DNA of 64,000 bases from Erysipelotrichaceae bacterium. Its GTDB lineage: Bacteria; Bacillota_I; Bacilli_A; Erysipelotrichales; Erysipelotrichaceae. The notes under the pieces are model-generated. The model had not been told where the DNA came from and did not search any database. It was given only the letters and a program-made list of their open reading frames with translations. A program made the translations under genes and the position numbers. Below, in pieces: positions 2,324 to 36,170 of this stretch; within the stretch, counting starts at the first letter, position 1, and each line of letters opens with the position of its first letter. The stretch spans positions 1-64,000 of the forward strand of contig JAUNEN010000003.1 in NCBI GenBank assembly GCA_030525525.1. The letters are read 5' to 3'.

Positions 2324-3193
2324 ATGGCATTGAAGCTGATGTACATTACGAACAGACCGGATATAGCAGTTATTGCGGAAAACGCGGGAGTAGACCGCAT
2401 TTTTGTCGATATGGAATACATTGGCAAAGCCGAAAGACAGAAAGGCCACGATACTGCTCAGCATCACCATACGATTAAAGATATCAAGGCAATACGCCAG
2501 GTGCTCAAAAAAGCAGAACTTCTGGTCCGTGTCAATCCGATACATGAGGCAGCGGAGGATTACTGTTCTTCAAAAGAGGAAATCGACGCGGTGATTGAGG
2601 CAGGCGCGGATGTAGTGATGCTGCCATATTTCAAGACAGTTGAAGAAGTGAAGAAATTCATTGAATACGTTGACGGAAGAGCCATCACATTCCCTCTTCT
2701 TGAAACACCCGAAGCAGTTGAGGTGATTGATGACATTCTCAAAATCAAAGGAATTGATGAGATTCATATCGGTTTGAATGATCTGAGCCTTGGCTATCAT
2801 GAGAACTTCCTGTTTGAGCCTTTGGCGGACGGAACAGTTGATATGCTGGTAAAGAAGTTCAAAAAAGCAGGGATTCCTTACGGATTCGGCGGGATTGCTT
2901 CAATCGGAAAGGGAATGCTGCCGGCTGAATATGTAATAAAAGAACATTACAGGCTCAAATCAACAAGAGTGATCCTCTCCAGAAGCTTCTGCAATGTAAA
3001 CCTTATGGATAATCTGGAAAACCTTGATGAAATCCGACATACATTTGATGAGGGTGTCAAAGAGATCAGAATGCTGGAAAGAGAATGCGCAGCTAGAGAT
3101 ACTGATTCAGATTATTTCAAAAGAAACAGAGAGGCTGTTCTGGATACAATAACAATGATATGTATTAATCTTGAAGATCATCAGGGGAAGTAA
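2324..3193 (+). CDS. HpcH/HpaI-type aldolase (citrate lyase beta / PEP-utilising TIM-barrel superfamily)
   Basis: 289 residues. Motifs fit the HpcH/HpaI aldolase family: VDMEYIGKAERQ near 28-39, LVRVNP near 67-72, GADVVMLP near 93-100, a metal-site-like PLLETPEAV near 124-132 and IGLNDLSL near 148-155. Members join or split pyruvate and aldehydes or related keto acids. Within a sugar locus it may make an unusual keto-acid building block; that is inference. It starts at an ATG with a GGGGGA site just upstream (2314-2319). It abuts the 2-hydroxyacid dehydrogenase directly (stop 3193, start 3194), which suggests consecutive steps: aldol product, then reduction of a 2-keto group. Confidence 0.8.
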   Translation: MALKLMYITNRPDIAVIAENAGVDRIFVDMEYIGKAERQKGHDTAQHHHTIKDIKAIRQVLKKAELLVRVNPIHEAAEDYCSSKEEIDAVIEAGADVVMLPYFKTVEEVKKFIEYVDGRAITFPLLETPEAVEVIDDILKIKGIDEIHIGLNDLSLGYHENFLFEPLADGTVDMLVKKFKKAGIPYGFGGIASIGKGMLPAEYVIKEHYRLKSTRVILSRSFCNVNLMDNLENLDEIRHTFDEGVKEIRMLERECAARDTDSDYFKRNREAVLDTITMICINLEDHQGK

Positions 3194-4093
3194 ATGAATA
3201 TTCTGATTACCGGCGCATGGCAGAATGCCGGAAAACATATACATATGATTGAAGAAATGGGTCATCAAGTCACATTCCTTCAATATGAAAAAGACCAACT
3301 CCCCTGCACCTCGGAATGGGTGGAGGGAGTTATTTGTAATGGACTCTTCCTGTATCACAGCATTGAGCAATTCACCAACCTTAAATACATCCAGTTAACC
3401 AGTGCCGGTTATGACAGAGTTCCGATTGATTATGTCAAAGAACATAACATCACCATATTCAATGCCAGAGGTGTCTACAGCATACCTATGGCTGAATATG
3501 CACTCAGCAGTGCATTAAATCTCTGCAAAAAATCCACATTCTTCCATGAAAACCAGAAACAGAAAAAATGGATCAAAAACAGAGATCTCAAAGAATTATA
3601 CAAACAGACAGTATGCATCATCGGCTGCGGCTCAGTCGGTACGGAATGCGCAAAAAGATTCAAAGCATTCGGAACAGCAATCATTGGCATAGACCAGTAT
3701 CCTTATGAGAATGAAGCATTTGATCAGATGTATAACATCAATAACCTTAATGATGTTTTGCCCACATCAGATGTCATCATCCTTACATTGCCTCTGACCA
3801 ATGAAACAAAGCATCTGATTAATGAAGAGAGGCTTTCTTTACTAAAAGATGAAGCAGTATTAATCAATATTTCAAGAGGTGCAGTCATAGACACAGATGC
3901 ATTAATCAATGCATTAATCAACAAAAACATCTATGCCATCCTGGATGTCTTTGAAGAAGAACCTTTAAATGAAAAAAGTCCTCTATGGAATTATGAAAAC
4001 GTTATGATTACTCCTCATAACAGTTTTGTGGGAGAACATAACAGCGAAAGATTATCAAATCTGATTATCAGGAATCTGAGTGATCTGAAGTGA
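3194..4093 (+). CDS. D-isomer specific 2-hydroxyacid dehydrogenase (NAD(P)-dependent)
   Basis: 299 residues. The nucleotide-binding fold shows as CIIGCGSVGTECAKRF near 138-153. Catalytic-region motifs are visible: INISRGAVIDTDAL near 226-239 (substrate-site Arg) and a late ITPHNSF near 274-280 with the catalytic His. The family reduces 2-keto acids to D-2-hydroxyacids. It directly follows the HpcH/HpaI aldolase with no gap, so it may reduce that enzyme's product. A second, divergent member lies at 17607-18536. The true substrate is unknown; a glyoxylate, hydroxypyruvate or lactate type is possible. Confidence 0.87.
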   Translation: MNILITGAWQNAGKHIHMIEEMGHQVTFLQYEKDQLPCTSEWVEGVICNGLFLYHSIEQFTNLKYIQLTSAGYDRVPIDYVKEHNITIFNARGVYSIPMAEYALSSALNLCKKSTFFHENQKQKKWIKNRDLKELYKQTVCIIGCGSVGTECAKRFKAFGTAIIGIDQYPYENEAFDQMYNINNLNDVLPTSDVIILTLPLTNETKHLINEERLSLLKDEAVLINISRGAVIDTDALINALINKNIYAILDVFEEEPLNEKSPLWNYENVMITPHNSFVGEHNSERLSNLIIRNLSDLK

Positions 4094-11981: not shown

Positions 11982-13278
11982 AATAGATCATGTAACAAAA
12001 GAATATCGATTAGGTGCAATTGGCGGCACAACTTTGAATGCAGAAATACAGAGCAAAATTGCAAAGTTAAGAGGAAAAGAAGATCCTAATCTGAAAATTG
12101 GAACAAATAAACATCGCTATGGCGAGCTATTCAAGGCATTAGACGGTGTTACTTTTGATGTACAGCCAGGTGAGGCTGTTGGCATTATCGGGCATAATGG
12201 TGCAGGAAAATCAACTCTGCTGAAGCTTATTTCGCGGGTAACTGCACCTACCAGTGGTGAAATACGGCTTCGTGGACGTGTAGCTTCGATGTTGGAAGTA
12301 GGAACAGGTTTCCATCCTGAACTCACGGGAAGAGAGAATGTTTATCTTAACGGTGCAATCTTAGGCATGACAAAAGCAGAAATCGATTCGAAGTTTAGCG
12401 AAATTGTAGAGTTTGCTGAGATGGAACAATTTATCGACACACCGGTAAAGCGTTATTCATCAGGTATGTATGTAAAACTTGCATTCTCTGTAGCTGCACA
12501 TTTAGACAGCGAAATCATGATTATGGATGAAGTTTTGGCTGTTGGTGATGCGAAATTCCAAAGTAAGTGCCTCAGTAAAATGAATGATGCCGCTCATAAT
12601 TCCGGTAAGACAATTCTTTACGTTAGTCATAATATGGGAACAATTCAAAGATTATGTGATCGCTGTATTGTACTGGATCATGGACATAATATCTTCGACG
12701 GTTCAGTAGATGAAGCTATCGGGATTTATTTGAAGCAAGGTGGTGGAGAAGGCAGTATTGTTGATTTATCTGCTTTCGAACGAAATAGGTGGGTGACAAA
12801 AACTGTCAAAATGACATTGATGAGATTTGTAGGAAAAGACAATTGTGTTTTTCTTCAGAACTCAAATATGATCTTTGATTTTTATTGGGAAACTTCGGCT
12901 AATGCGGATATACAGGATTTAGTACTGCGTTGCACATTCTATCATCAAAGCGGTGTTGTTGCGGCTTTCACTACGATCGGATTGGGAAATGCCGGTCCTA
13001 ATGAAAAACATTATGATCGGATCGAAATATCATTACAAGGAATGATTCCGGGCAACTATTACTTCACATTTGATATGAATGAAGTCTACTCTGATGGAAG
13101 CGATGTTTGGAATGACAGTTGCGATCAGGTTACAACAATCAGCATTGAAAAACACCGGACTGAAGATAATTCGCTGCATTCAGATTATTCCCATATGCTT
13201 CCGTGGAGGCATTCCTCATATGGAAGCGTATGCCTGGCGTCAACGATTTTAGAAGAAAAGTCCGATTATGATCTTTAA
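11962..13278 (+). CDS. ABC polysaccharide exporter ATPase with C-terminal carbohydrate-binding domain (Wzt-like)
   Basis: 438 residues. Walker A GHNGAGKST at 77-85, signature region RYSSGMYVKLAFS near 166-178, Walker B IMIMDEVLAVGD near 187-198 and switch His in YVSHN near 221-225. After about residue 258 comes a beta-rich extension of roughly 180 residues, as in Wzt proteins whose C-terminal domain binds the modified end of the O-polysaccharide before export. An insertion between the first strand and Walker A (about 25-55) is typical of TagH/Wzt members. Partner permease: 10002-10862. Confidence 0.92.
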   Translation: MSKPMIEIDHVTKEYRLGAIGGTTLNAEIQSKIAKLRGKEDPNLKIGTNKHRYGELFKALDGVTFDVQPGEAVGIIGHNGAGKSTLLKLISRVTAPTSGEIRLRGRVASMLEVGTGFHPELTGRENVYLNGAILGMTKAEIDSKFSEIVEFAEMEQFIDTPVKRYSSGMYVKLAFSVAAHLDSEIMIMDEVLAVGDAKFQSKCLSKMNDAAHNSGKTILYVSHNMGTIQRLCDRCIVLDHGHNIFDGSVDEAIGIYLKQGGGEGSIVDLSAFERNRWVTKTVKMTLMRFVGKDNCVFLQNSNMIFDFYWETSANADIQDLVLRCTFYHQSGVVAAFTTIGLGNAGPNEKHYDRIEISLQGMIPGNYYFTFDMNEVYSDGSDVWNDSCDQVTTISIEKHRTEDNSLHSDYSHMLPWRHSSYGSVCLASTILEEKSDYDL

Positions 13279-13310
13279 TATTCATTTTGACCATTAGGAA
13301 GGTAACGGAT

Positions 13311-14285
13311 ATGGGAAAAATAAAGGCCCTAATCAGAAAAAAAGTACTAAATCGTTATAAACTTACAAGATTAAGACATACGAAACGATGGCTTATTACA
13401 CAGAATAATCGTATCAAGCATTGGTATAACGTTAAACTTGATGCGTATCTGATGGCTAAATATCGTGAGCATAATGAATTGCCGGAAATTAAGGGTATTG
13501 AAGAAACGCTGGAAACAATTGTTCAAAATAAATGCTCGATTGCCAGATTTGGGGATGGCGAAATAGGGCTGATTTTCGGTAAAGGAATTGGGTTTCAAAA
13601 AAATGATAAGGAATTAGGCGAACGTTTGGCATCTGTTTTACGCTCAGATGTTAGCGACCATATGTTAATTGGAATCAGCGAGTGGATTTTCAACTCGAAT
13701 TTTGGAACATATCCCGAATACAGGCTGAAATATCTTAAAAGTATCCTCAATCTTCTACTTCCTGGAAAAACATATTATTCAGCTGATATTTCTCGATTCT
13801 ATAAGACAACTCCTGACGGTCATGATGGCTTAAATCAAATTTGTCTTCTGAAAGAAATATGGGACGGAAGAAGTGTGATTTTGGTTGAAGGTGAAAAGAG
13901 TCGGATGGGGGTTGGAAACGATTTGTTAGATAATGCAAAAAGCATTAGAAGAATACTTTGCCCAGCTGAAAATGCATTTTCACATTATGAAGAGATATAT
14001 ACAACAACATTAGATAAAGCATCGAAGGATGATTTGATACTGATCGCACTTGGACCGACAGCAACTGTTTTAGCTTATGATTTATTTTTAGCAGGTTATC
14101 AAGCAGTGGATATAGGACATGCGGATATTTCATACGAGTGGTTTTTGAGAGATGTCAGTGATCCTTCTGGAAGAGTTGTGATAGCAGGTAAGTATGTGAA
14201 TGAAGTCGGTGGTGGAAATCAAGTTGAAGATATTAATGATGCTGATTATGAAGGACAGATCATTGCTGTAATTACTGATGAATAA
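13311..14285 (+). CDS. GT-D fold glycosyltransferase (DUF1792-like)
   Basis: 324 residues from the ATG at 13311, which has AGGAAGG at 13296-13302; an in-frame TTG at 13287 is less likely. The motif SIARFGDGEIGLI near 71-83 and the late GPTATVLAYDLFLAGYQAVDIGHADISYEWFL pattern (about 247-278) match the GT-D family (DUF1792). That family was first described for the third glucosyltransferase of Fap1-type serine-rich adhesin glycosylation and is also frequent in capsule loci. It overlaps the longest reading frame of the next gene by 8 bases. Confidence 0.78.
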   Translation: MGKIKALIRKKVLNRYKLTRLRHTKRWLITQNNRIKHWYNVKLDAYLMAKYREHNELPEIKGIEETLETIVQNKCSIARFGDGEIGLIFGKGIGFQKNDKELGERLASVLRSDVSDHMLIGISEWIFNSNFGTYPEYRLKYLKSILNLLLPGKTYYSADISRFYKTTPDGHDGLNQICLLKEIWDGRSVILVEGEKSRMGVGNDLLDNAKSIRRILCPAENAFSHYEEIYTTTLDKASKDDLILIALGPTATVLAYDLFLAGYQAVDIGHADISYEWFLRDVSDPSGRVVIAGKYVNEVGGGNQVEDINDADYEGQIIAVITDE

Positions 14286-14316
14286 AGCGAATTTGTATAT
14301 TAATTGGAACGAAAAT

Positions 14317-15414
14317 ATGACAGACCGTATTAACGTAACAAAAACATCTCTTCCTCCTATGGAGGAGTATATTCAGGAAATCTCATCCATGTGGGAATCT
14401 CACTGGATTACCAACATGGGAGAGAAACACATTGAATTAGAGAAGAAACTGAAAGAGTATCTGGATATTGATCATGTAACACTTTTTACCAATGGGCATC
14501 TTGCATTGGAAAATGCAATTGCAGCTATGGATTTAAAGGGTGAAATCATAACAACTCCGTATACCTTTGCATCTACTACGCATGCAATTATCAGAAATAA
14601 CATCAAGCCTGTTTTCTGTGATGTTGAGCCTGATACATGTACATTGGATGCAAATAAAATAGAAGAATTGATTACACCAGAAACAAGTGCAATCATTCCT
14701 GTTCATGTATATGGAAATATCTGCAATGTGGAAGAAATAGAGCGCATTGCTAAAAAGCACAACCTCAAAGTTATTTATGATGCTGCTCATGCCTTTGGTG
14801 AAAGCTATAAAGGTAAAAATGTATCACGTTTCGGAGACGCATCAATGTTCTCTTTCCATGCTACAAAGGTATTCAACACCGTTGAAGGCGGAGCTGTAAC
14901 ATGTGCTGATCAGGAACTGCAAAGCAAGTTATATTACATCAAGAATTTCGGTATTCCCGGTGAAGACAGAATTGTTTTCCCCGGAGGTAATGCCAAAATG
15001 AGTGAATTCCACGCTGCAATGGGATTATGCAATCTGAGACATCTGGAAGAATACAAAGCCGGAAGAAAGAATGTTGTAGAGAGATATCAAAAGAATTTAA
15101 GCAATATTGATGGTTTAAGAATATGGAAGAAACAGGCTGAAGTAGACTCCAACTATGCTTATTTCCCTGTATTCTTCGAATCAAACGGATATGACCGCAA
15201 TCATGTAGCCGATCAATTAAAAGAACATAACATCTTTGCAAGAAAATACTTCTATCCGTTAACCAACAATAATGAGTGGTTTGGAAATCATGGCAGTGAA
15301 ACACCTGTTGCATTAAGACTGTCAGAACAGGTATTAACGCTTCCTCTTTATCCGGATCTTCCTCTTGAAACAGTAGATGAGATCTGTGACATCGTAATTC
15401 ATTCAAAACTTTAA
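14317..15414 (+). CDS. DegT/DnrJ/EryC1 aminotransferase, VioA-like (sugar 4-aminotransferase)
   Basis: 365 residues from ATG 14317 (GGAA at 14306-14309). The upstream in-frame ATG at 14278 adds 13 residues but has no ribosome site. PLP-enzyme features: WITNMGEKHIELE near 29-41, PYTFASTTHAI near 82-92, DAAHAFGE near 156-163 and the lysine of SFHATKVFNTVEGGA (about 180-194). The start resembles VioA, which aminates dTDP-4-keto-6-deoxyglucose to dTDP-Qui4N. That reading is supported by the formyltransferase that follows. No RmlA/RmlB genes for the dTDP precursor lie in the window, so they must be elsewhere. Confidence 0.88.
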   Translation: MTDRINVTKTSLPPMEEYIQEISSMWESHWITNMGEKHIELEKKLKEYLDIDHVTLFTNGHLALENAIAAMDLKGEIITTPYTFASTTHAIIRNNIKPVFCDVEPDTCTLDANKIEELITPETSAIIPVHVYGNICNVEEIERIAKKHNLKVIYDAAHAFGESYKGKNVSRFGDASMFSFHATKVFNTVEGGAVTCADQELQSKLYYIKNFGIPGEDRIVFPGGNAKMSEFHAAMGLCNLRHLEEYKAGRKNVVERYQKNLSNIDGLRIWKKQAEVDSNYAYFPVFFESNGYDRNHVADQLKEHNIFARKYFYPLTNNNEWFGNHGSETPVALRLSEQVLTLPLYPDLPLETVDEICDIVIHSKL

Positions 15415-15430
15415 AAGGAGGTTATGATCC

Positions 15431-16162
15431 ATGAGAGTATGTATTATTACAGATAACAGTTACATCTATGATAATTTCATCCGTATTCTGAATCACAAAT
15501 CTCATATTGATGCAGAATTTGATTTTTACTATACCTCCTGGAATAAAGCATTTAAAGAGAAATATGGAGAAAACGGATTGATGAAACCTGTTCTTTTAAA
15601 GAACCAGGATCAATCCTTTTTTGATTCCTATGATTTATTCATTTCTCTTCATTGCAAACAGTTATTCCCTGAATACATGGTAAAAAACTATACATGTATC
15701 AATGTACATCCGGGATATAACCCATATAACAGAGGCTGGTTCCCTCAGGTGTTCAGTATTATTAATAAGAAACCGATCGGAGTAACAATCCACCTCATGG
15801 ATGCAGAACTTGATCACGGGGATATCCTTTATCAGAAGAAGTTAGAAATCTATCCGTATGAAACATCAAAAGATGTCTATAACAGAATTCTTGAAACAGA
15901 GATGGAATTAATGGATGAACATTTAGAAGAGATTCTGAACAGCACATATACACCTGTCAAAATGGATAGTGAAGGCAATATTAACTACAAAAAAGACTTT
16001 GATGAATTATGCAAGCTTGACCTTGACGAGAAAGCAACGTATCGTGATGTCATTGATCGATTGAGAGCATTAACATTCTCACCTTATGAGAATGCATATT
16101 TCTATGATGAAGAAGGAAACAAGATCTACGTAGGCATCACATTAAAGAAAGAAGAGAAGTAA
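15431..16162 (+). CDS. Sugar-amine N-formyltransferase (VioF-like)
   Basis: 243 residues with a formyl_transf fold. INVHPGYNPYNRGWFPQVF (near 94-112) contains the family's NxHPG.P..RG signature with catalytic Asn/His. DAELDHGDI near 128-136 supplies the second catalytic Asp. The length and the RGWFPQVFS motif match dTDP-4-amino-4,6-dideoxyglucose formyltransferases (VioF) better than ArnA or methionyl-tRNA formyltransferase. N10-formyl-THF would be the donor. An AAGGAGG site (15415-15421) precedes the ATG. The pair implies an N-formylated 4-amino-4,6-dideoxyhexose in the polymer. Confidence 0.88.
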   Translation: MRVCIITDNSYIYDNFIRILNHKSHIDAEFDFYYTSWNKAFKEKYGENGLMKPVLLKNQDQSFFDSYDLFISLHCKQLFPEYMVKNYTCINVHPGYNPYNRGWFPQVFSIINKKPIGVTIHLMDAELDHGDILYQKKLEIYPYETSKDVYNRILETEMELMDEHLEEILNSTYTPVKMDSEGNINYKKDFDELCKLDLDEKATYRDVIDRLRALTFSPYENAYFYDEEGNKIYVGITLKKEEK

Positions 16163-17606: not shown

Positions 17607-18536
17607 ATGAATATATATTGCATCTTTGATGATTATCCTAAGGAAGCCATTAACCGCCTGCTTGAGGCAGGCATTGTTTTGACAGTACATCCTAAAGGAA
17701 AATCCAGACCGAATAACACTGAGATGAAAATGATTCTTCAAGAGTATGATGGAGTTATCATTGGGACATCGCAGAGAATAAATGAAGATATGTTTGAGGG
17801 AATTGATGATCCACGTATCATTGCAACAGCTTCTGTTGGACTGGATCACATTCATGTCCCTGAAAACAAAAAGAAGCATGTAACGATTATCAATACTCCA
17901 ACAGCTAATGCACGCTCAGTAGCTGAGTATACAATTGGATGCTTTCTTTCCTGTACTAAGCGGTTTGCTGAAGGAAAGAATCTTTACCTGGAGGGAAAGA
18001 ATAATAAACAACTTAGTAAAAAGCCTGGAGATATTTACGGTAAGAGCTTAGGAGTTATCGGCGCAGGAAACATATCCAGAGAAATCATGCTTATGGCAAA
18101 GATGCTTGGGATGAACGTTTTTTTCTGGACTCCGCACCCTGAAAATCATATTGACCTCCATAAGGATGGAATGACATACAGAGAATTCGATCAGCTTATA
18201 TCAGAATCAGATTATATATCTGTCAATCTTCCCAACAACGAAGGTACAAAAGACCTGATCTCTGAGCGAGTTGTTTCTATTATGAAAGAAGATGCTGTTT
18301 TTGTGAGTGTATCACGTCTGCCAACTGTAAATCTTCGGGCTCTAGTTGAAAAGGCTGAACAGAGCAGAGATTTCTATGTGTGTTTGGATATTGATGTTGA
18401 TGATAGTGTGGTTAGCCAGTTGCCGAATCTTCCGAATCTTCAATTGACACCTCATATTGCCGGTGGAACAACTGAAACAAGGATAAGAATGTTTAATGAA
18501 ATTGCAAGTATGTTAGTTGGTATTGTCGAGGATTAG
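17607..18536 (+). CDS. D-2-hydroxyacid / phosphoglycerate-type dehydrogenase
   Basis: 309 residues. NAD-binding motif LGVIGAGNISREIM near 147-160, IATASVGLDHIHV near 71-83 and TANARSVAEYTIGCFLS near 100-116. The arginine region is VSVSRLPTVNLRAL (about 231-244), where the usual S-R-G is S-R-L. The C-terminal LTPHIAGGTTETR near 282-294 carries the catalytic His. Phosphoglycerate-dehydrogenase-like enzymes oxidise or reduce 2-hydroxyacids. Here, far from serine genes, it probably supplies a hydroxyacid used by the ATP-grasp or cytidylyltransferase enzymes downstream (inference). Confidence 0.85.
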   Translation: MNIYCIFDDYPKEAINRLLEAGIVLTVHPKGKSRPNNTEMKMILQEYDGVIIGTSQRINEDMFEGIDDPRIIATASVGLDHIHVPENKKKHVTIINTPTANARSVAEYTIGCFLSCTKRFAEGKNLYLEGKNNKQLSKKPGDIYGKSLGVIGAGNISREIMLMAKMLGMNVFFWTPHPENHIDLHKDGMTYREFDQLISESDYISVNLPNNEGTKDLISERVVSIMKEDAVFVSVSRLPTVNLRALVEKAEQSRDFYVCLDIDVDDSVVSQLPNLPNLQLTPHIAGGTTETRIRMFNEIASMLVGIVED

Positions 18537-22007: not shown

Positions 22008-23744
22008 ATGATCTACGGCGCAATATTAGCTGGCGGAATTGGAAAACGTATGGAAAACCATTCTGTTCCCAAGCAATTTATTACTATTGCAGGTACACCT
22101 ATTATTATTTTGACGTTACGGGAATTTCTGAGAAACGAACGCTTTGACCGAATATATGTGGCTGTGCATCCGGACTGGATGGATTATGCCATTCGCTTGT
22201 TTGACAGCTATCTGTCTGATGATGAAAAAGACAGAATTACAATTGTGAGCGGTGGTAAGGAGCGCCTGGACTCGTTTGCAAATATCATGGAAAAAGTGAT
22301 TCAGGAGAATGGAATATCTTCTGATGATGTTTTAATCTGCCATGATTCAGTCCGTCCATTTGTCAGACAGCAGATGATTAATGATTGTATAGATGCAACG
22401 CTAGAGGATCATTTTGCTCTTACTGTAGTACCCACGACAGATACAATTCATACTTCTTCTGATCACAGGTATCTTGAAGGAACACTTGACAGAACTCAGC
22501 TTTTCAATGGTCAGACACCTTCTGGTTTTAATGTGGAGCTGTTAAAAAAAGCCTTGGATAGCTTTACTGATGAGGCAAAAGCATCTATCACAGGCACAAC
22601 ACAATTGATTTTGAAACTTGGCTACAAGATAAGAATCGTTCAGGGGCATACAGGAAATTTTAAAATTACAACTGACAATGATTTGGAAGTGGCCGAGAGA
22701 ATCATGCAGTCTGCACCAAAGACACGGAAAGTCAGTTTGCTTGACTGCACATTGCGCGATGGCGGTATTGTTTTGAATTTTGATTATGGATCTGAAAGAA
22801 TGCAAAAAATCAAATCGATTCTTGAGGAGACTGGAGTGGAATATATCGAATGTGGATATATTGATGAAAAGAAAGGCAGTCCAGAAGGGCGGACGTGTTT
22901 TAACAATGAAGTATCGATTGAAAAAACACTCTTATCATCAGGAAAAAAAGAAGGTGTTACGTATGTGGCAATGATTGATTATGGCACATTTAATATGGAT
23001 CTTTTGCAGCCAAGAAATAATCAAGGTATTGATGGAATCAGACTTGCCTTTCATAAGGAACATGTTCCCAGGTTTGTTGAACAAGGCAGAAAAATCTTAG
23101 AAAAAGGCTATGATCTCTACATTCAGCCGATGGTTTCGATGCGATACACCGATGATGAATATAAAGATCTGATCAGGATGTGCAATGAAGAATTGCCGGA
23201 AGCGAAAGGCTTTTATGTTGTTGACAGTTTCGGCCAGATGGATAATATGGATCTTCGCCATAAACTTGATTTGGCAGATACACATCTGTCTATGTCCATG
23301 GTGTTGGGTTTTCATGCTCACAATAACAGGCAGATGGCTTATTCAAATGCACTTGCGTTCCTGGATTTCAATGCCAAACATGACACAATTCTTGATGCAA
23401 GTATTATGGGAATGGGAAAAGGAGCAGGCAATCTCTGTACAGAATTGATTGAAGCAGCCCTTAATAAAGAAGGAAAGAATTACAATTCAACAGTGATCTA
23501 TGATGCTATTTCAGAGTATTTTGCACAACAGCAGAAGATTACACCGTGGGGATATAGTCTTGATTACTATCTTTCTTCGCTTTATTCATGCACGCCGAGT
23601 TATATTAAGATTTTTACGAGTGATGAACGTGTGACAACAGATATATTAATTGATCTTCTGAAAAATATGCCTGACGAAAAGCGTGCAGCATGTGACAGGG
23701 TTTTCGCTAAGCAGTATCTTGTTAACTACTTTAAGGATTGCTGA
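22008..23744 (+). CDS. Fusion: IspD/TarI-type cytidylyltransferase + DRE-TIM (HMGL-like) aldolase
   Basis: 578 residues from ATG 22008 with AGGAGGAG just upstream (21997-22004). Residues 1-235 are a cytidylyltransferase: LAGGIGKRM 7-15, VPKQF 20-24, HDSVRPF 112-118 and FKITTDNDL 218-226. Residues 241 to about 490 are a DRE-TIM metallolyase-like barrel: DCTLRDGG 246-253, metal His pair in GFHAHNN 434-440 and GMGKGAGN 468-475. It resembles the 4-hydroxy-2-oxovalerate aldolase-like group found in polysaccharide loci. The joint suggests that a carbon skeleton made by the aldolase domain, or derived from it, is activated as a CDP ester. LicD genes downstream are the natural users. The product is unknown; a role in isoprenoid synthesis is unlikely. 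Confidence 0.87.
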   Translation: MIYGAILAGGIGKRMENHSVPKQFITIAGTPIIILTLREFLRNERFDRIYVAVHPDWMDYAIRLFDSYLSDDEKDRITIVSGGKERLDSFANIMEKVIQENGISSDDVLICHDSVRPFVRQQMINDCIDATLEDHFALTVVPTTDTIHTSSDHRYLEGTLDRTQLFNGQTPSGFNVELLKKALDSFTDEAKASITGTTQLILKLGYKIRIVQGHTGNFKITTDNDLEVAERIMQSAPKTRKVSLLDCTLRDGGIVLNFDYGSERMQKIKSILEETGVEYIECGYIDEKKGSPEGRTCFNNEVSIEKTLLSSGKKEGVTYVAMIDYGTFNMDLLQPRNNQGIDGIRLAFHKEHVPRFVEQGRKILEKGYDLYIQPMVSMRYTDDEYKDLIRMCNEELPEAKGFYVVDSFGQMDNMDLRHKLDLADTHLSMSMVLGFHAHNNRQMAYSNALAFLDFNAKHDTILDASIMGMGKGAGNLCTELIEAALNKEGKNYNSTVIYDAISEYFAQQQKITPWGYSLDYYLSSLYSCTPSYIKIFTSDERVTTDILIDLLKNMPDEKRAACDRVFAKQYLVNYFKDC

Positions 23745-23749
23745 CGTAC

Positions 23750-24769
23750 ATGAATGAGGAAAATAGGAATTATAAACTGCAGCTGATCAGCAAATACAGA
23801 ACGATTTTGATGGGAATATCTATTTTAATGATTACCTTCTGTCATTTGGATATAGCACGCAGATATAATGGTCTGCCGGGAATTAAACTCGGCAGTCTGC
23901 TGCACTTGTTTACTGTAGGTGTAGATATCTTCATGTTTCTTTCTGGATTTGGGTTATGGTATTCCTTAAGTAATAATAATGATGCTAAGACTTTTCTGAA
24001 AAAACGCATCATAAAGTTACTTCCTAAATACATTGTAATTGCCGGGATAACTTACTTTCTATATGATCTGATTATTGCAAAGCACGGATTTCTGAAGTTT
24101 GTACAGGATTATACGTTTCTATCTTGGGTATTGTATGGCAGTACCAGATACTGGTTCGTTGCAGGCATTTTAATATTTTATATATTCTTTCCGCTGATTT
24201 TCAAAGTTATTTCGAATGATGCGGTAAAAGATAGATATAAGATGTTTGTTTTCTTGATTGTCTTTCTTGCTATTGTTTTCTTTTTTGATACACATTTTGA
24301 GCGTTACCGTGATTTCAGGATTGCAATTGAGAGGCTTCCTGTATTCATCCTCGGGGCATTATGTGCAAAGTATTCTGATAAAACAATCAGCAGATTGCAT
24401 CTTGGCATAATGACAGCAATCGGATTAATATTTACTGCTGTGCAGATGCTCTCTGATCCTTTTCAATCATGGGTTTCGCATACGCCATATATGTATTATT
24501 TATCAAGAGGATTGTTCGCTGTTTCTTTGATGATCGTGTTTATTCTTATCCTGGAAAAATTGAGCGGGGACACACTTTCGATACTGCAAGGAGGATTTAC
24601 TCTTCTTGGCACAGCTACTTACGAGATATATCTCTTCCATCAGAGTTATATGATTTTATTGAATTTTCCACCTTACTTGCCCGGTTACATCCTGGCAGCA
24701 GTTATTATGCCTGTGTTTTCAGGCATAATACTAAAATCTATTACAAAAATAAGTAAATTAGAAATGTAA
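23750..24769 (+). CDS. Membrane acyltransferase (acyltransferase 3 / OafA family)
   Basis: 339 residues from ATG 23750 (AAGGA at 23733-23737). About ten hydrophobic segments. The family-specific start includes RTILMGISILMITFCHLDIAR near 17-37 (catalytic His region) and GVDIFMFLSGFGLWYSL near 55-71, with FHQSYM near 303-308 at the end. Acyltransferase-3 proteins O-acetylate sugars at the membrane using acetyl-CoA. Acceptor unknown. It starts 6 bases after the fusion enzyme's stop. A second full member is at 37440-38471. Confidence 0.88.
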   Translation: MNEENRNYKLQLISKYRTILMGISILMITFCHLDIARRYNGLPGIKLGSLLHLFTVGVDIFMFLSGFGLWYSLSNNNDAKTFLKKRIIKLLPKYIVIAGITYFLYDLIIAKHGFLKFVQDYTFLSWVLYGSTRYWFVAGILIFYIFFPLIFKVISNDAVKDRYKMFVFLIVFLAIVFFFDTHFERYRDFRIAIERLPVFILGALCAKYSDKTISRLHLGIMTAIGLIFTAVQMLSDPFQSWVSHTPYMYYLSRGLFAVSLMIVFILILEKLSGDTLSILQGGFTLLGTATYEIYLFHQSYMILLNFPPYLPGYILAAVIMPVFSGIILKSITKISKLEM

Positions 24770-24882
24770 AGTCAGTGATAATTTGCTGGATGTTATATGA
24801 TTGCAACTACTGAAATGTTACAGATACTTGGAATAAGCTATCATATCTGTATTAACTTTTGAATTCAATGGAGGAATACCTA

Positions 24883-25797
24883 ATGATTGAATTGAACATC
24901 GAAGTTCCAGATCAGTTTCTGGAACCTGAGGTAATATGTGACTATGAAGTGTCGAAGCAAATGAAGGAGATATGGGCAATTGAGCTTGACCTTTTCAATG
25001 AACTTGATCGAGTTTGCAAAAAACATGGGCTATCATATTTTGCGGGAGCCGGGACATTGCTTGGGGCTATTCGACATAAAGGTTTTATTCCATGGGATGA
25101 TGACATGGACTTTTATATGCTCAGATCAGATTATGACAAACTGATAAATTTGGCAAATGAGTTCGCCCATCCGTATTTTCTGCAGACCGGTTATACAGAT
25201 CAGGCTATTATGAGAACACATGTCCGAATAAGAAACAGCAATACAACTGCATGCTCATCATGGGAAAAGCAGTTTGACTGCAACAAAGGAGTATTTATAG
25301 ATATTTTTCCGCTGGATGGTATTACTGAAAATAAGTTTAAAGATAAGACGCAGAAAGCATTGAACATGATTTACCGGACAGTAATGAGGAACAAACAACC
25401 TATAAATTTCAAGCAACAGCCACTAAAGATATCGTTGAAACAAGCCGCCATTAATACGGTTGTGACAATTGCTCACCGTGACAAAACAAAAGCAATGATC
25501 AGATATGAAAATAATCTGAGAAAGTATTCTGATAAAAACGCAAAAATGTGGGGGAACAGGACGCTTGTTTTTGATTGCCCAAAATCAAGAAGACCTCTGG
25601 AAGATTGGATGGATATCATTCATGTACCTTTTGAGTTCATGGAGATCCCTATTCCAAGAAACTATGATGAAATACTTCGGCAGCAGTATGGGAATTATAT
25701 GGAATTTCCTAAAGATAAAACACAGGGTAAGCTTCATGAGGTGATTATCGTTTCCACAGATACCCCGTATAAGGAGTATCTGAAGAATTACAAATAA
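24883..25797 (+). CDS. LicD family phosphotransferase
   Basis: 304 residues. ATG 24883 is chosen because of GGAGGA at 24870-24875. The LicD hallmark lies near 45-73: GLSYFAGAGTLLGAIRHKG then FIPWDDDMDF, the nucleotidyltransferase-fold metal site. The C-terminal RQQYGNYMEFP (about 275-285) is also typical. LicD proteins transfer phosphocholine, phosphoribitol or other alcohol phosphates from CDP-linked donors to sugars. Donor genes are close: cytidylyltransferases at 22008 and 34378. No licA/licB/licC choline genes are visible, so choline is not assumed. Confidence 0.9.
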   Translation: MIELNIEVPDQFLEPEVICDYEVSKQMKEIWAIELDLFNELDRVCKKHGLSYFAGAGTLLGAIRHKGFIPWDDDMDFYMLRSDYDKLINLANEFAHPYFLQTGYTDQAIMRTHVRIRNSNTTACSSWEKQFDCNKGVFIDIFPLDGITENKFKDKTQKALNMIYRTVMRNKQPINFKQQPLKISLKQAAINTVVTIAHRDKTKAMIRYENNLRKYSDKNAKMWGNRTLVFDCPKSRRPLEDWMDIIHVPFEFMEIPIPRNYDEILRQQYGNYMEFPKDKTQGKLHEVIIVSTDTPYKEYLKNYK

Positions 25798-27942: not shown

Positions 27943-27960
27943 ACTGTGGAGGGAAGAAGA

Positions 27961-28791
27961 ATGGACAATGAACACTTAAGGGATCTGCAGCTATGTGAAT
28001 ATGAGATTCTGAAAGTTTTGGATGATATTTGTAAAAAAGAGAATTTACAGTATTATCTTGCGGCCGGAACATTGCTCGGAGCGGTTAGACACCATGGTTT
28101 TATTCCGTGGGATGATGATGTCGATGTTATAATGCCGGTCGATGATTTTATAAAATTCAACGAAGTGGCAAAGAAACATCTTGGTGACCAATACTTTCTG
28201 CAGACTAGCAAAACAGATCCTGATTATGGATATCTTTTTACAAAAATCCGGAAAAATGGAACAACATTAATGAGTCCATGGGAAAGAAATAATCCTGGAC
28301 ATCACGGGGTGTGGGTGGATATTTTTCCTATTATTCCGATCAATAATAAAATGGATTACTATGTCAAAAAAACAACTGTTCGATTCAGCAACTTTTTGTG
28401 TATGAATGATGTGCTATTTAACTACAATTACGAGTATTTAGTAAAGCGCAGCAATCCAATTCTTATGAAGGCAATTGCCATAATGAGAAAAACACCAGCC
28501 GATGCTAGAAAGAGATTGCATCTGAAAATTCAAAAAGCATTGCTGAAAAGTAATCCGAAGGCATCTTCTGTTGGTATTATCTGGACTAATATTACATTAG
28601 TTGTTCCAAAACACCTGTTTGATGGTAAGCCTGAAATGTTAACATTTGAAACGCAAAAGTTTCCGGTAATGCCGGAATACGATGAATTTCTGACAAGGCA
28701 ATATGGTGATTACATGACTCCTCCTCCTGAAAATCAGCGCAATGGTGGTCATGGGATGATTATAGTTGATCTGGAAAAAGAGCTCTGGTAA
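27961..28791 (+). CDS. LicD family phosphotransferase (second copy)
   Basis: 276 residues from ATG 27961, preceded by GGAGGGAAG; a GTG frame start at 27946 overlaps that site. LicD motif near 27-57: LQYYLAAGTLLGAVRHHG then FIPWDDDVDVIMP. C-terminal FLTRQYGDYMTPPP near 243-256. Related in motifs to the LicD at 24883 but clearly divergent, so it probably has a different donor or acceptor. It would transfer an alcohol phosphate from a CDP donor to a glycan hydroxyl. Confidence 0.9.
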   Translation: MDNEHLRDLQLCEYEILKVLDDICKKENLQYYLAAGTLLGAVRHHGFIPWDDDVDVIMPVDDFIKFNEVAKKHLGDQYFLQTSKTDPDYGYLFTKIRKNGTTLMSPWERNNPGHHGVWVDIFPIIPINNKMDYYVKKTTVRFSNFLCMNDVLFNYNYEYLVKRSNPILMKAIAIMRKTPADARKRLHLKIQKALLKSNPKASSVGIIWTNITLVVPKHLFDGKPEMLTFETQKFPVMPEYDEFLTRQYGDYMTPPPENQRNGGHGMIIVDLEKELW

Positions 28792-34377: not shown

Positions 34378-35109
34378 ATGGCAAACATAGCATTGATTAT
34401 TGCTGGCGGATCAGGACACAGAATGGGACAGGATGTTCCAAAGCAGTTTCTTACCGTCAATGATAAACCGATCATAATATATACAATGGAAGGATTTGAA
34501 AAGCATCCGTTAATTGATGCAATTGAAGTCGTATGTATAGATGGCTGGCATGATGTACTGGCAGCTTATGCAAAGCAATTCAATATCAGTAAATTGAAAT
34601 GGATTACAAGCGGGGGTAACAGCGGGCAGGAGTCCATACGCAATGGTGTTTACAATCTTGAAGGAGTTATTAATAACGATGACATTGTTATTATTCATGA
34701 TGGTATTCGTCCGCTTGTAGACGCAGATGTGCTTTCCGATGTGATCACCAAAGCGCAAAAGTATGGAAATGCTGTCACATCTCTTCCTTACAATGAGCAG
34801 ATCTTCGTGATTGATGATGATGTCTCTACGACTAAATATATACCAAGAGAAACCCTCAGAAGAGTGTCTACACCGCAGGCATACCAGTTTGGTTTACTTG
34901 ATGAAAAGTATCATGAAGCATTTGAAAAAGAAATCGGTATTTATGGATCCTCATATACCAATACGATGATGACGGAGCTTGGCGTAAGGCTGTATTTCGC
35001 TGCGGGATCTGATAAGAATATCAAATTAACAACTACAGATGATCTGTTTATTTTTAAAGCCTATCTTGAGGCCGATGAGATCAAGTGGCTGAAGAAGGAG
35101 AAGAAATGA
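34378..35109 (+). CDS. IspD/TarI-family cytidylyltransferase
   Basis: 243 residues. Motifs: IIAGGSGHRMG 7-17, VPKQF 20-24, IHDGIRPL near 109-116, IPRETLRRVSTPQAYQF near 160-176 and IKLTTTDDL near 221-229. The ETLRRVSTPQ segment and the neighbouring reductase and LicD genes favour a polyol-phosphate cytidylyltransferase (TarI-type, making a CDP-alditol) over the MEP-pathway IspD. It overlaps the next gene by ATGA, so the two are translationally coupled. Together they resemble pairs that make CDP-linked alditols for teichoic-acid-like or capsule decorations. Confidence 0.87.
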   Translation: MANIALIIAGGSGHRMGQDVPKQFLTVNDKPIIIYTMEGFEKHPLIDAIEVVCIDGWHDVLAAYAKQFNISKLKWITSGGNSGQESIRNGVYNLEGVINNDDIVIIHDGIRPLVDADVLSDVITKAQKYGNAVTSLPYNEQIFVIDDDVSTTKYIPRETLRRVSTPQAYQFGLLDEKYHEAFEKEIGIYGSSYTNTMMTELGVRLYFAAGSDKNIKLTTTDDLFIFKAYLEADEIKWLKKEKK

Positions 35110-36170
35110 AACTTTTTGAACATCCCTTATACAAGGAAGATATCCAAAGAATTGCTAACCTGCATTTACCATGGGATAAACTGAATAATAAATCTATTTT
35201 GATCTCAGGTGCTTCCGGTATGATTGGTAGTTTACTGTCAGATGTGTTGGCTTATAAAGATGACAAAGAACAACTGAATTGCAGAATAATCGCTTTGGGA
35301 AGAAATGAACAACGAGCACATGATAGATTTGCGCGATACTATGAAAAACCTTATTTTCAGTTTATATCGCATGATATAAGCAATCCTTTGGTATTGGAAG
35401 AAACTGAAAACATATCTTATGTAATTCATCTTGCAAGCAATACTCATCCCAAAGCTTATGCGACAGATCCGATTGGAACGATAACAACAAATATATTAGG
35501 TACTAAAAATCTTCTTGATATAGCAGTCAAGTATGATGCGGAAAGATTTCTGCTGGCTTCTTCGAATGAAATCTATGGAGAAAACCGCGGCGATACAGAA
35601 CTGTTTTCAGAAAATTATTGTGGATATATAGACTGTAATACTGTGCGGGCTGGATACCCTGAAAGTAAACGGTGTTCGGAAGCTCTTTGCCAGGCTTATA
35701 AGGCACAAAAAGGTGTAAATGTTGTCATAGCACGACTAACCCGTTCATACGGACCGTCATTGCTGTCTTCAGATACCAAGGCTATGTCACAGTTTATACA
35801 TAATGCATTGAAAGGCGAAGATATTGTTCTTAAAAGTGCTGGGACTCAATACTATTCATATACTTACGCAGCGGATGCAGTCAGCGGTCTGCTCACGGTA
35901 TTACTGTGTGGAGAAAATGGAGACGCATATAATGTTTCGGACATAGCTTCGGATATAACTCTTAAAGAACTGGCAAAAACTATTGCCGATGCAACAAGTA
36001 CCAAAGTCGTATTCGATTTGCCGGATTCAGTTGAGTCGATTGGCTTTTCAAAAGCTACAAAAGCGAGATTAGACAGTGCAAAACTACAAAAGTTTGGCTG
36101 GAAAGCACAATACACAATTTCAGATGGCATTAAGCGAACTTTAGAAATACTTAAGAGCCTTACTGATTAA
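35106..36170 (+). CDS. NAD-dependent epimerase/dehydratase (extended SDR)
   Basis: 354 residues from ATG 35106, overlapping the previous stop (ATGA), with AAGGAG at 35095-35100. NAD site ISGASGMIGSLL near 35-46, HLASNTHP near 103-110, LLASSNEIYGE near 141-151 and catalytic Tyr/Lys in GYPESKRCSEALC near 176-188. Extended SDRs change nucleotide-sugar stereochemistry or dehydrate at C4. Paired with a TarI-like enzyme, it probably acts on the sugar or alditol that becomes CDP-linked. TarJ, the usual partner, is a different fold, so this pathway differs from standard CDP-ribitol synthesis. Confidence 0.85.
   Translation: MKLFEHPLYKEDIQRIANLHLPWDKLNNKSILISGASGMIGSLLSDVLAYKDDKEQLNCRIIALGRNEQRAHDRFARYYEKPYFQFISHDISNPLVLEETENISYVIHLASNTHPKAYATDPIGTITTNILGTKNLLDIAVKYDAERFLLASSNEIYGENRGDTELFSENYCGYIDCNTVRAGYPESKRCSEALCQAYKAQKGVNVVIARLTRSYGPSLLSSDTKAMSQFIHNALKGEDIVLKSAGTQYYSYTYAADAVSGLLTVLLCGENGDAYNVSDIASDITLKELAKTIADATSTKVVFDLPDSVESIGFSKATKARLDSAKLQKFGWKAQYTISDGIKRTLEILKSLTD

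Follow-up and report, generated by a model that had tools for sequence, protein, structure and literature searches.

Cytidylyltransferases of the IspD/TarI type couple CTP to a phosphate, and with KdsB and NeuA it is the anomeric hydroxyl of a 2-keto acid that receives CMP. To our knowledge, the CDP-activated units placed by LicD-type phosphotransferases have so far been mostly choline, ethanolamine and simple polyols. The TarI/Bcs1-type ribitol-5-phosphate cytidylyltransferases (6xhp, 2vsh and 4jis) have a TarJ-type reductase as a partner or as a fused domain, while a protein encoded in the 64,000-nt stretch of DNA analyzed here (the window), from a gut- or rumen-type Erysipelotrichaceae bacterium, is fused to an aldolase domain instead. 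What is new here is a predicted CDP-forming glycan enzyme in which the carbon skeleton would be built by its own aldolase domain. Neither a characterized homologue nor a description of the fusion was found in the literature searched, which lay mostly outside subscription journals; a prior description is possible.

The first-pass annotation had described one 578-residue chain joining a TarI/IspD-like domain to an HMGL-like aldolase, and translation, Pfam and the NCBIfam model NF001183 confirmed this arrangement (Table 1). The reading frame is uninterrupted, and an AGGAGG sequence lies just 5′ of its ATG. When genome contigs were searched with an aldolase alignment, the same domain order was found in two further genomes. 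The protein of Ruminococcaceae UBA1236 (L019) shares 72.5% identity with the window fusion over 575 residues, and that of Bacteroidaceae RGIG2785 (L020) shares 63%. A chance fusion, a read-through or a frameshift was therefore ruled out, because these two genomes carry the same fusion over nearly the full length at 63–73% identity.

Table 1. Fusion gene, its domains and neighboring genes (positions in the 64,000-nt window).
Feature	Position	Strand	Evidence
Fusion protein, 578 aa: cytidylyltransferase and pyruvate-aldolase-like domain	22008..23744	+	Translation, Pfam, NCBIfam, alignment, structure comparison
IspD/TarI-type cytidylyltransferase domain, residues 1–235	22008..22712	+	Pfam IspD, NF001183, TarI structures
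DRE-TIM/DmpG-like pyruvate-aldolase domain with C-terminal helical part, residues 240–578	22725..23741	+	HMGL-like, 3dxi, 1nvm
D-2-hydroxyacid dehydrogenase, subfamily found only with the fusion	17607..18536	+	Pfam 2-Hacid_dh_C 1e-32
Acyltransferase-3 membrane protein, overlapping the fusion end	23738..24769	+	Pfam Acyl_transf_3 3.7e-25
LicD-type phosphotransferase	24859..25797	+	Pfam LicD 6.7e-47; shares 51.5% identity with the LicD next to the UBA1236 fusion
Second LicD-type protein, candidate for the module	27946..28791	+	Pfam LicD 6.6e-40; 33% identical to the UBA1236 LicD

In a quick tree of 87 rows, the three fusions formed one clade (SH-aLRT 100), with unfused aldolases (L021–L027) as its sister (SH-aLRT 99). 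Beyond these three, no further fusion was found among 100 relatives of the window genome, about 390 genomes of the phylum, and 250 and 301 genomes of the families, nor in the plasmids, E. coli and phages searched. A candidate fourth fusion in G493 was rejected, as a separate KdsB-like gene lies there 6 bases from an unfused aldolase. At least two of the three known fusions come from metagenome assemblies, and their occurrence in Bacillota and in a Bacteroidota metagenome-assembled genome, whose contigs may be misbinned, suggests horizontal transfer.

The N-terminal domain matched Pfam IspD at 4e-45 over residues 6–234, passed NF001183 (D-ribitol-5-phosphate cytidylyltransferase) with 228.5 bits against a cut-off of 166, and matched S. 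aureus TarI (6xhp) in sequence at 4e-49. Its CTP-binding motifs are intact on alignment to 6xhp, 3f1c, 4jis and 2vsh, and LAGGxGKR, PKQF, HDSVRPF and NFKITT are present in all three fusions. An AlphaFold2 model (mean pLDDT 77; pTM 0.56, so that the domain orientation was not interpreted) was built from an alignment that excluded misaligned IspD-only rows. The N-domain of the model is weaker for this reason, and its residues 1–218 aligned to S. aureus TarI 6xhs with a Z of 23.6 and an rmsd of 2.8 (186 aligned). A housekeeping isoprenoid role is unlikely for the fusion, since each of the three genomes has other IspD-type genes at separate sites and isoprenoid synthesis does not have to depend on the fusion. 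At 34378–36170 of the window, a second IspD-like gene precedes an SDR/epimerase gene, and RGIG2785 has the same pair (48% and 41% identical) ~3 kb downstream from its fusion, at 12186–13891; this pair is perhaps another CDP-compound cassette.

The C-terminal domain matched Pfam HMGL-like (PF00682) at 4e-15, with 56.2 bits against a cut-off of 29, and its best sequence match was 3dxi (5.5e-24), followed by 4-hydroxy-2-oxovalerate aldolases. The RDG metal Asp, the HxH pair and the barrel fold of the DRE-TIM superfamily were found; D251, H436 and H438 are invariant, and R250, E281 and N475 are also conserved throughout the 87-row family alignment, in agreement with the complete metal motifs noted in the first-pass annotation. 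On alignment, neither domain has lost its motif residues: those of the aldolase and the CTP motifs are retained. In the structure comparison, residues 233–577 of the model aligned to DmpG (1nvm) with a Z of 30.8 and an rmsd of 2.9 (327 aligned), and this match covers the entire aldolase domain up to its C-terminal end; the alignments to the Claisen enzymes stop at residue ~514. However, the domain failed the curated DmpG/BphI models (80.7 vs. 286 bits for TIGR03217, and 89.4 vs. 229 bits for NF006049). The catalytic His21 of DmpG is absent, with Ile in the three fusions, Cys or Ile in the sister clade and mostly Tyr elsewhere, so the acid/base residue differs from that of DmpG, which is a point against the explanation favored below. 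Judged from its sequence, the C-terminal domain is a DRE-TIM metallo-aldolase, although it fails the curated DmpG models.

Most of the unfused relatives are of ~530 aa and consist of the aldolase and a C-terminal extension. In their neighborhoods, counted from the 80 best hits, a CTP_transf_3 gene (KdsB-like or PseF/NeuA-like) was within four genes of the aldolase in 43 of 84 loci and directly adjoined it in 40 of 84, an adjacency much more frequent than at other positions of these loci (Fisher 7e-24). Most of the adjoining CTP_transf_3 genes are upstream and either overlap the aldolase gene or end at most 73 bases from it, and KdsC/HAD phosphatase genes are often downstream. The cytidylyltransferase partners in L018 and L110 scored over the cut-off of NCBIfam KdsB models, as did genes in L021 and L025 with the KdsC-type model TIGR01670. 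Among 68 scanned neighbors, HAD hydrolases were the commonest other family, followed by families that included MptE-like proteins, polysialyltransferases and family-52 glycosyltransferases; the 25 commonest Pfam families listed for these neighbors did not include a PEP-dependent synthase. Based on this gene context, the unfused aldolase seems to act as the condensing enzyme of CMP-ulosonic-acid cassettes.

Unfused aldolases directly behind KdsB/PseF-like genes, often before KdsC/HAD genes, were observed in L021, L022, L025, L029, L040, L043, L055, L110 and others, and an undescribed pyruvate-aldolase route to CMP-ulosonic acids in several phyla is possible. In another branch of the aldolase family (L044, L049, L077, L086, L091, L094 and L097), a DegT aminotransferase gene replaces the cytidylyltransferase directly upstream. 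In L016 and L073, the family is represented by short unfused aldolases beside split transketolase genes, suggesting yet another product.

The fused loci have a different set of partners. No match to CTP_transf_3 or KdsC/HAD was obtained in any of the three fused loci, and no NeuB sialic-acid synthase in the three fusion genomes. In contrast, a D-2-hydroxyacid dehydrogenase was present in 3/3 fused vs. 0/82 unfused loci (Fisher 1e-5). The window enzyme shares 53% and 42% identity with its counterparts at the UBA1236 and RGIG2785 fusions, respectively. In searches at E 1e-45, its subfamily was confined to the fusion-bearing genome in each of three samples, taken from the UBA1236 family (300 genomes), from relatives of the window genome (100) and from the RGIG2785 family (301). 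In RGIG2785, there is a 4-nt overlap between the dehydrogenase gene and the fusion. Weak points of the proposal below are that three genes and ~3.5 kb separate the window dehydrogenase from the fusion, that this enzyme keeps Arg and His but is missing the usual Glu, and that the known fusions number only three. Two consecutive sugar-transfer-associated ATP-grasp genes (PF14397, 18542–20707) are located between the dehydrogenase and the fusion.

Other genes of the locus were also recorded. An HpcH/HpaI-type aldolase gene (2324–3193) is followed by a D-2-hydroxyacid dehydrogenase gene (3194–4093) encoding the canonical Arg/Glu/His, which is a second aldolase and 2-hydroxyacid dehydrogenase pair of the same glycan locus. 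A DegT aminotransferase gene and then a dTDP-4-amino-4,6-dideoxyglucose formyltransferase gene (NF005755 over cut-off) at 14278–16162 probably provide this glycan with an N-formylated amino sugar.

Two LicD genes are indeed near the fusion, as the first-pass annotation had pointed out. LicD is genetically linked to the CDP-forming enzyme to varying extents: in UBA1236 the sole LicD gene of the genome adjoins the fusion, overlapping it by 4 nt, and in the window LicD genes are in the same locus as the fusion; in RGIG2785 the nearest LicD gene is ~9 kb upstream and its product 30% identical, a further point against the favored explanation. An Acyl_transf_3 gene adjoins the fusion in 3/3 loci and was found at most two genes away from the aldolase in 2/76 unfused loci with a home-made profile; this evidence is weaker, as those same loci had served to build the profile.

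We consider it about evenly balanced whether the fusion is a bifunctional surface-glycan enzyme that would act through aldol addition, reduction, formation of a CDP-3-deoxyaldonate and LicD transfer. As family and neighborhood suggest, the aldolase domain would add a pyruvate enolate, held on a divalent metal, to a terminally phosphorylated aldehyde, producing a 2-oxo-3-deoxy-4-hydroxy acid phosphate, of which the dehydrogenase would reduce the 2-oxo group (C2) to give a 3-deoxyaldonate phosphate. The TarI-type domain would then place CMP from CTP onto this phosphate, and the LicD encoded at 24859 would transfer the phospho-3-deoxyaldonate from the CDP-3-deoxyaldonate onto the glycan as a phosphodiester, where the acyltransferase may decorate it. 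With a shift from KdsB/NeuA-type to IspD/TarI-type activation, the phosphate must stay and no KdsC would act; the fused clade being without the phosphatase is consistent with the phosphate being retained as a handle. The keto group would be eliminated by a dehydrogenase acting on 2-oxo acids, and an IspD-type enzyme, which uses a phosphate, stands in place of a CMP-ulosonate synthetase, which uses the anomeric hydroxyl. The fused clade thus differs from its ulosonic-acid relatives in exactly the ways that the proposed chemistry requires. The first-pass annotation had predicted a CDP-activated product with an aldol-derived skeleton, and the family-wide gene neighborhoods independently support that prediction; it had missed the dehydrogenase and the CMP-ulosonate-type cassettes of the relatives, and the dehydrogenase, which co-occurs only with the fusion, changes the predicted product. 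Its core idea is therefore partly supported, in outline, and is refined here.

The same domains may be read otherwise. A phosphorylated ulosonic acid could keep its 2-keto (ring) form and receive CMP on its phosphate from the TarI domain, resulting in a CDP-ulosonate, with the dehydrogenase acting elsewhere. The sister clade is beside KdsC-like and CMP-ulosonate-synthetase-like genes, and therefore an ulosonate phosphate was probably the product of the direct ancestor; however, a CDP-ulosonate leaves the fusion-only dehydrogenase subfamily unexplained, and such a product appears unlikely. The DRE-TIM domain might instead perform another C–C reaction, such as a Claisen condensation with an acyl-CoA, a cleavage, or a reaction with a 2-oxo acid other than pyruvate, given that the superfamily includes isopropylmalate synthase, homocitrate synthase and HMG-CoA lyase and that the DmpG His21 is missing. 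Against this, the 4-hydroxy-2-oxovalerate aldolases and 3dxi are nearest in sequence and fold, the C-terminal part is also DmpG-like and the neighbors are of the ulosonic-acid type, making a different reaction improbable.

The curated D-ribitol-5-phosphate cytidylyltransferase model and the closest structures, those of TarI, would also suit an ordinary CDP-alditol (ribitol or similar), in which case the aldolase would supply or remove a different metabolite and the fusion would serve co-regulation. Yet no TarJ-type reductase was found among the Pfam-scanned genes, a part of the locus genes, near the window fusion or in UBA1236. Further, the relatives also have their aldolase gene linked to that of a CTP-using enzyme, suggesting consecutive steps, and a CDP-alditol is the least probable of these alternatives.

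The broader proposal is that CDP-3-deoxyaldonic acid represents a new class of nucleotide-activated glycan precursor, made by the fused aldolase/cytidylyltransferase with a dedicated 2-hydroxyacid dehydrogenase and derived from a widespread undescribed pyruvate-aldolase route to CMP-ulosonic acids; this is advanced tentatively, at somewhat less than even confidence. If true, an acidic aldol-built unit would be a new chemical class in bacterial coats, and a function would be provided for a family whose structure 3dxi is solved but uncharacterized. The aldolase family, present in many gut bacteria and in several phyla, points to an ulosonic-acid route in which a pyruvate aldolase replaces the PEP-dependent condensing step.

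Compared with known systems, the aldolase domain is similar to DmpG/BphI (1nvm) in the DRE-TIM fold with its C-terminal domain and in the metal HxH and RDG motifs, but the two share only 17% identity in the structural alignment, the fusion scores far below the curated cut-offs and is missing His21, and it is in a glycan locus with no acylating aldehyde dehydrogenase partner seen. The putative aldolase BVU_2661 of Bacteroides vulgatus (3dxi) and the glycan-locus proteins annotated as "aldolase catalytic domain-containing" belong to the same family and have the signature DCTLRDGG, and no description of their function was found in the literature; unlike the fusion, they are unfused and mostly have a C-terminal extension of ~190 aa beside CMP-ulosonate-synthetase-like genes. 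The Kdo and sialic-acid pathways (KdsA–KdsC–KdsB and NeuB–NeuA) have the phosphatase and CMP-synthetase steps in common with the unfused relatives, but use a PEP-dependent synthase where these relatives show a pyruvate aldolase, while the fused clade is without both of those steps. The TarI/Bcs1-type enzymes are similar to the N-terminal domain of the fusion, with the same CTP motifs and the same NF001183 model passed, whereas the predicted substrate of the fusion would be an acidic aldol product.
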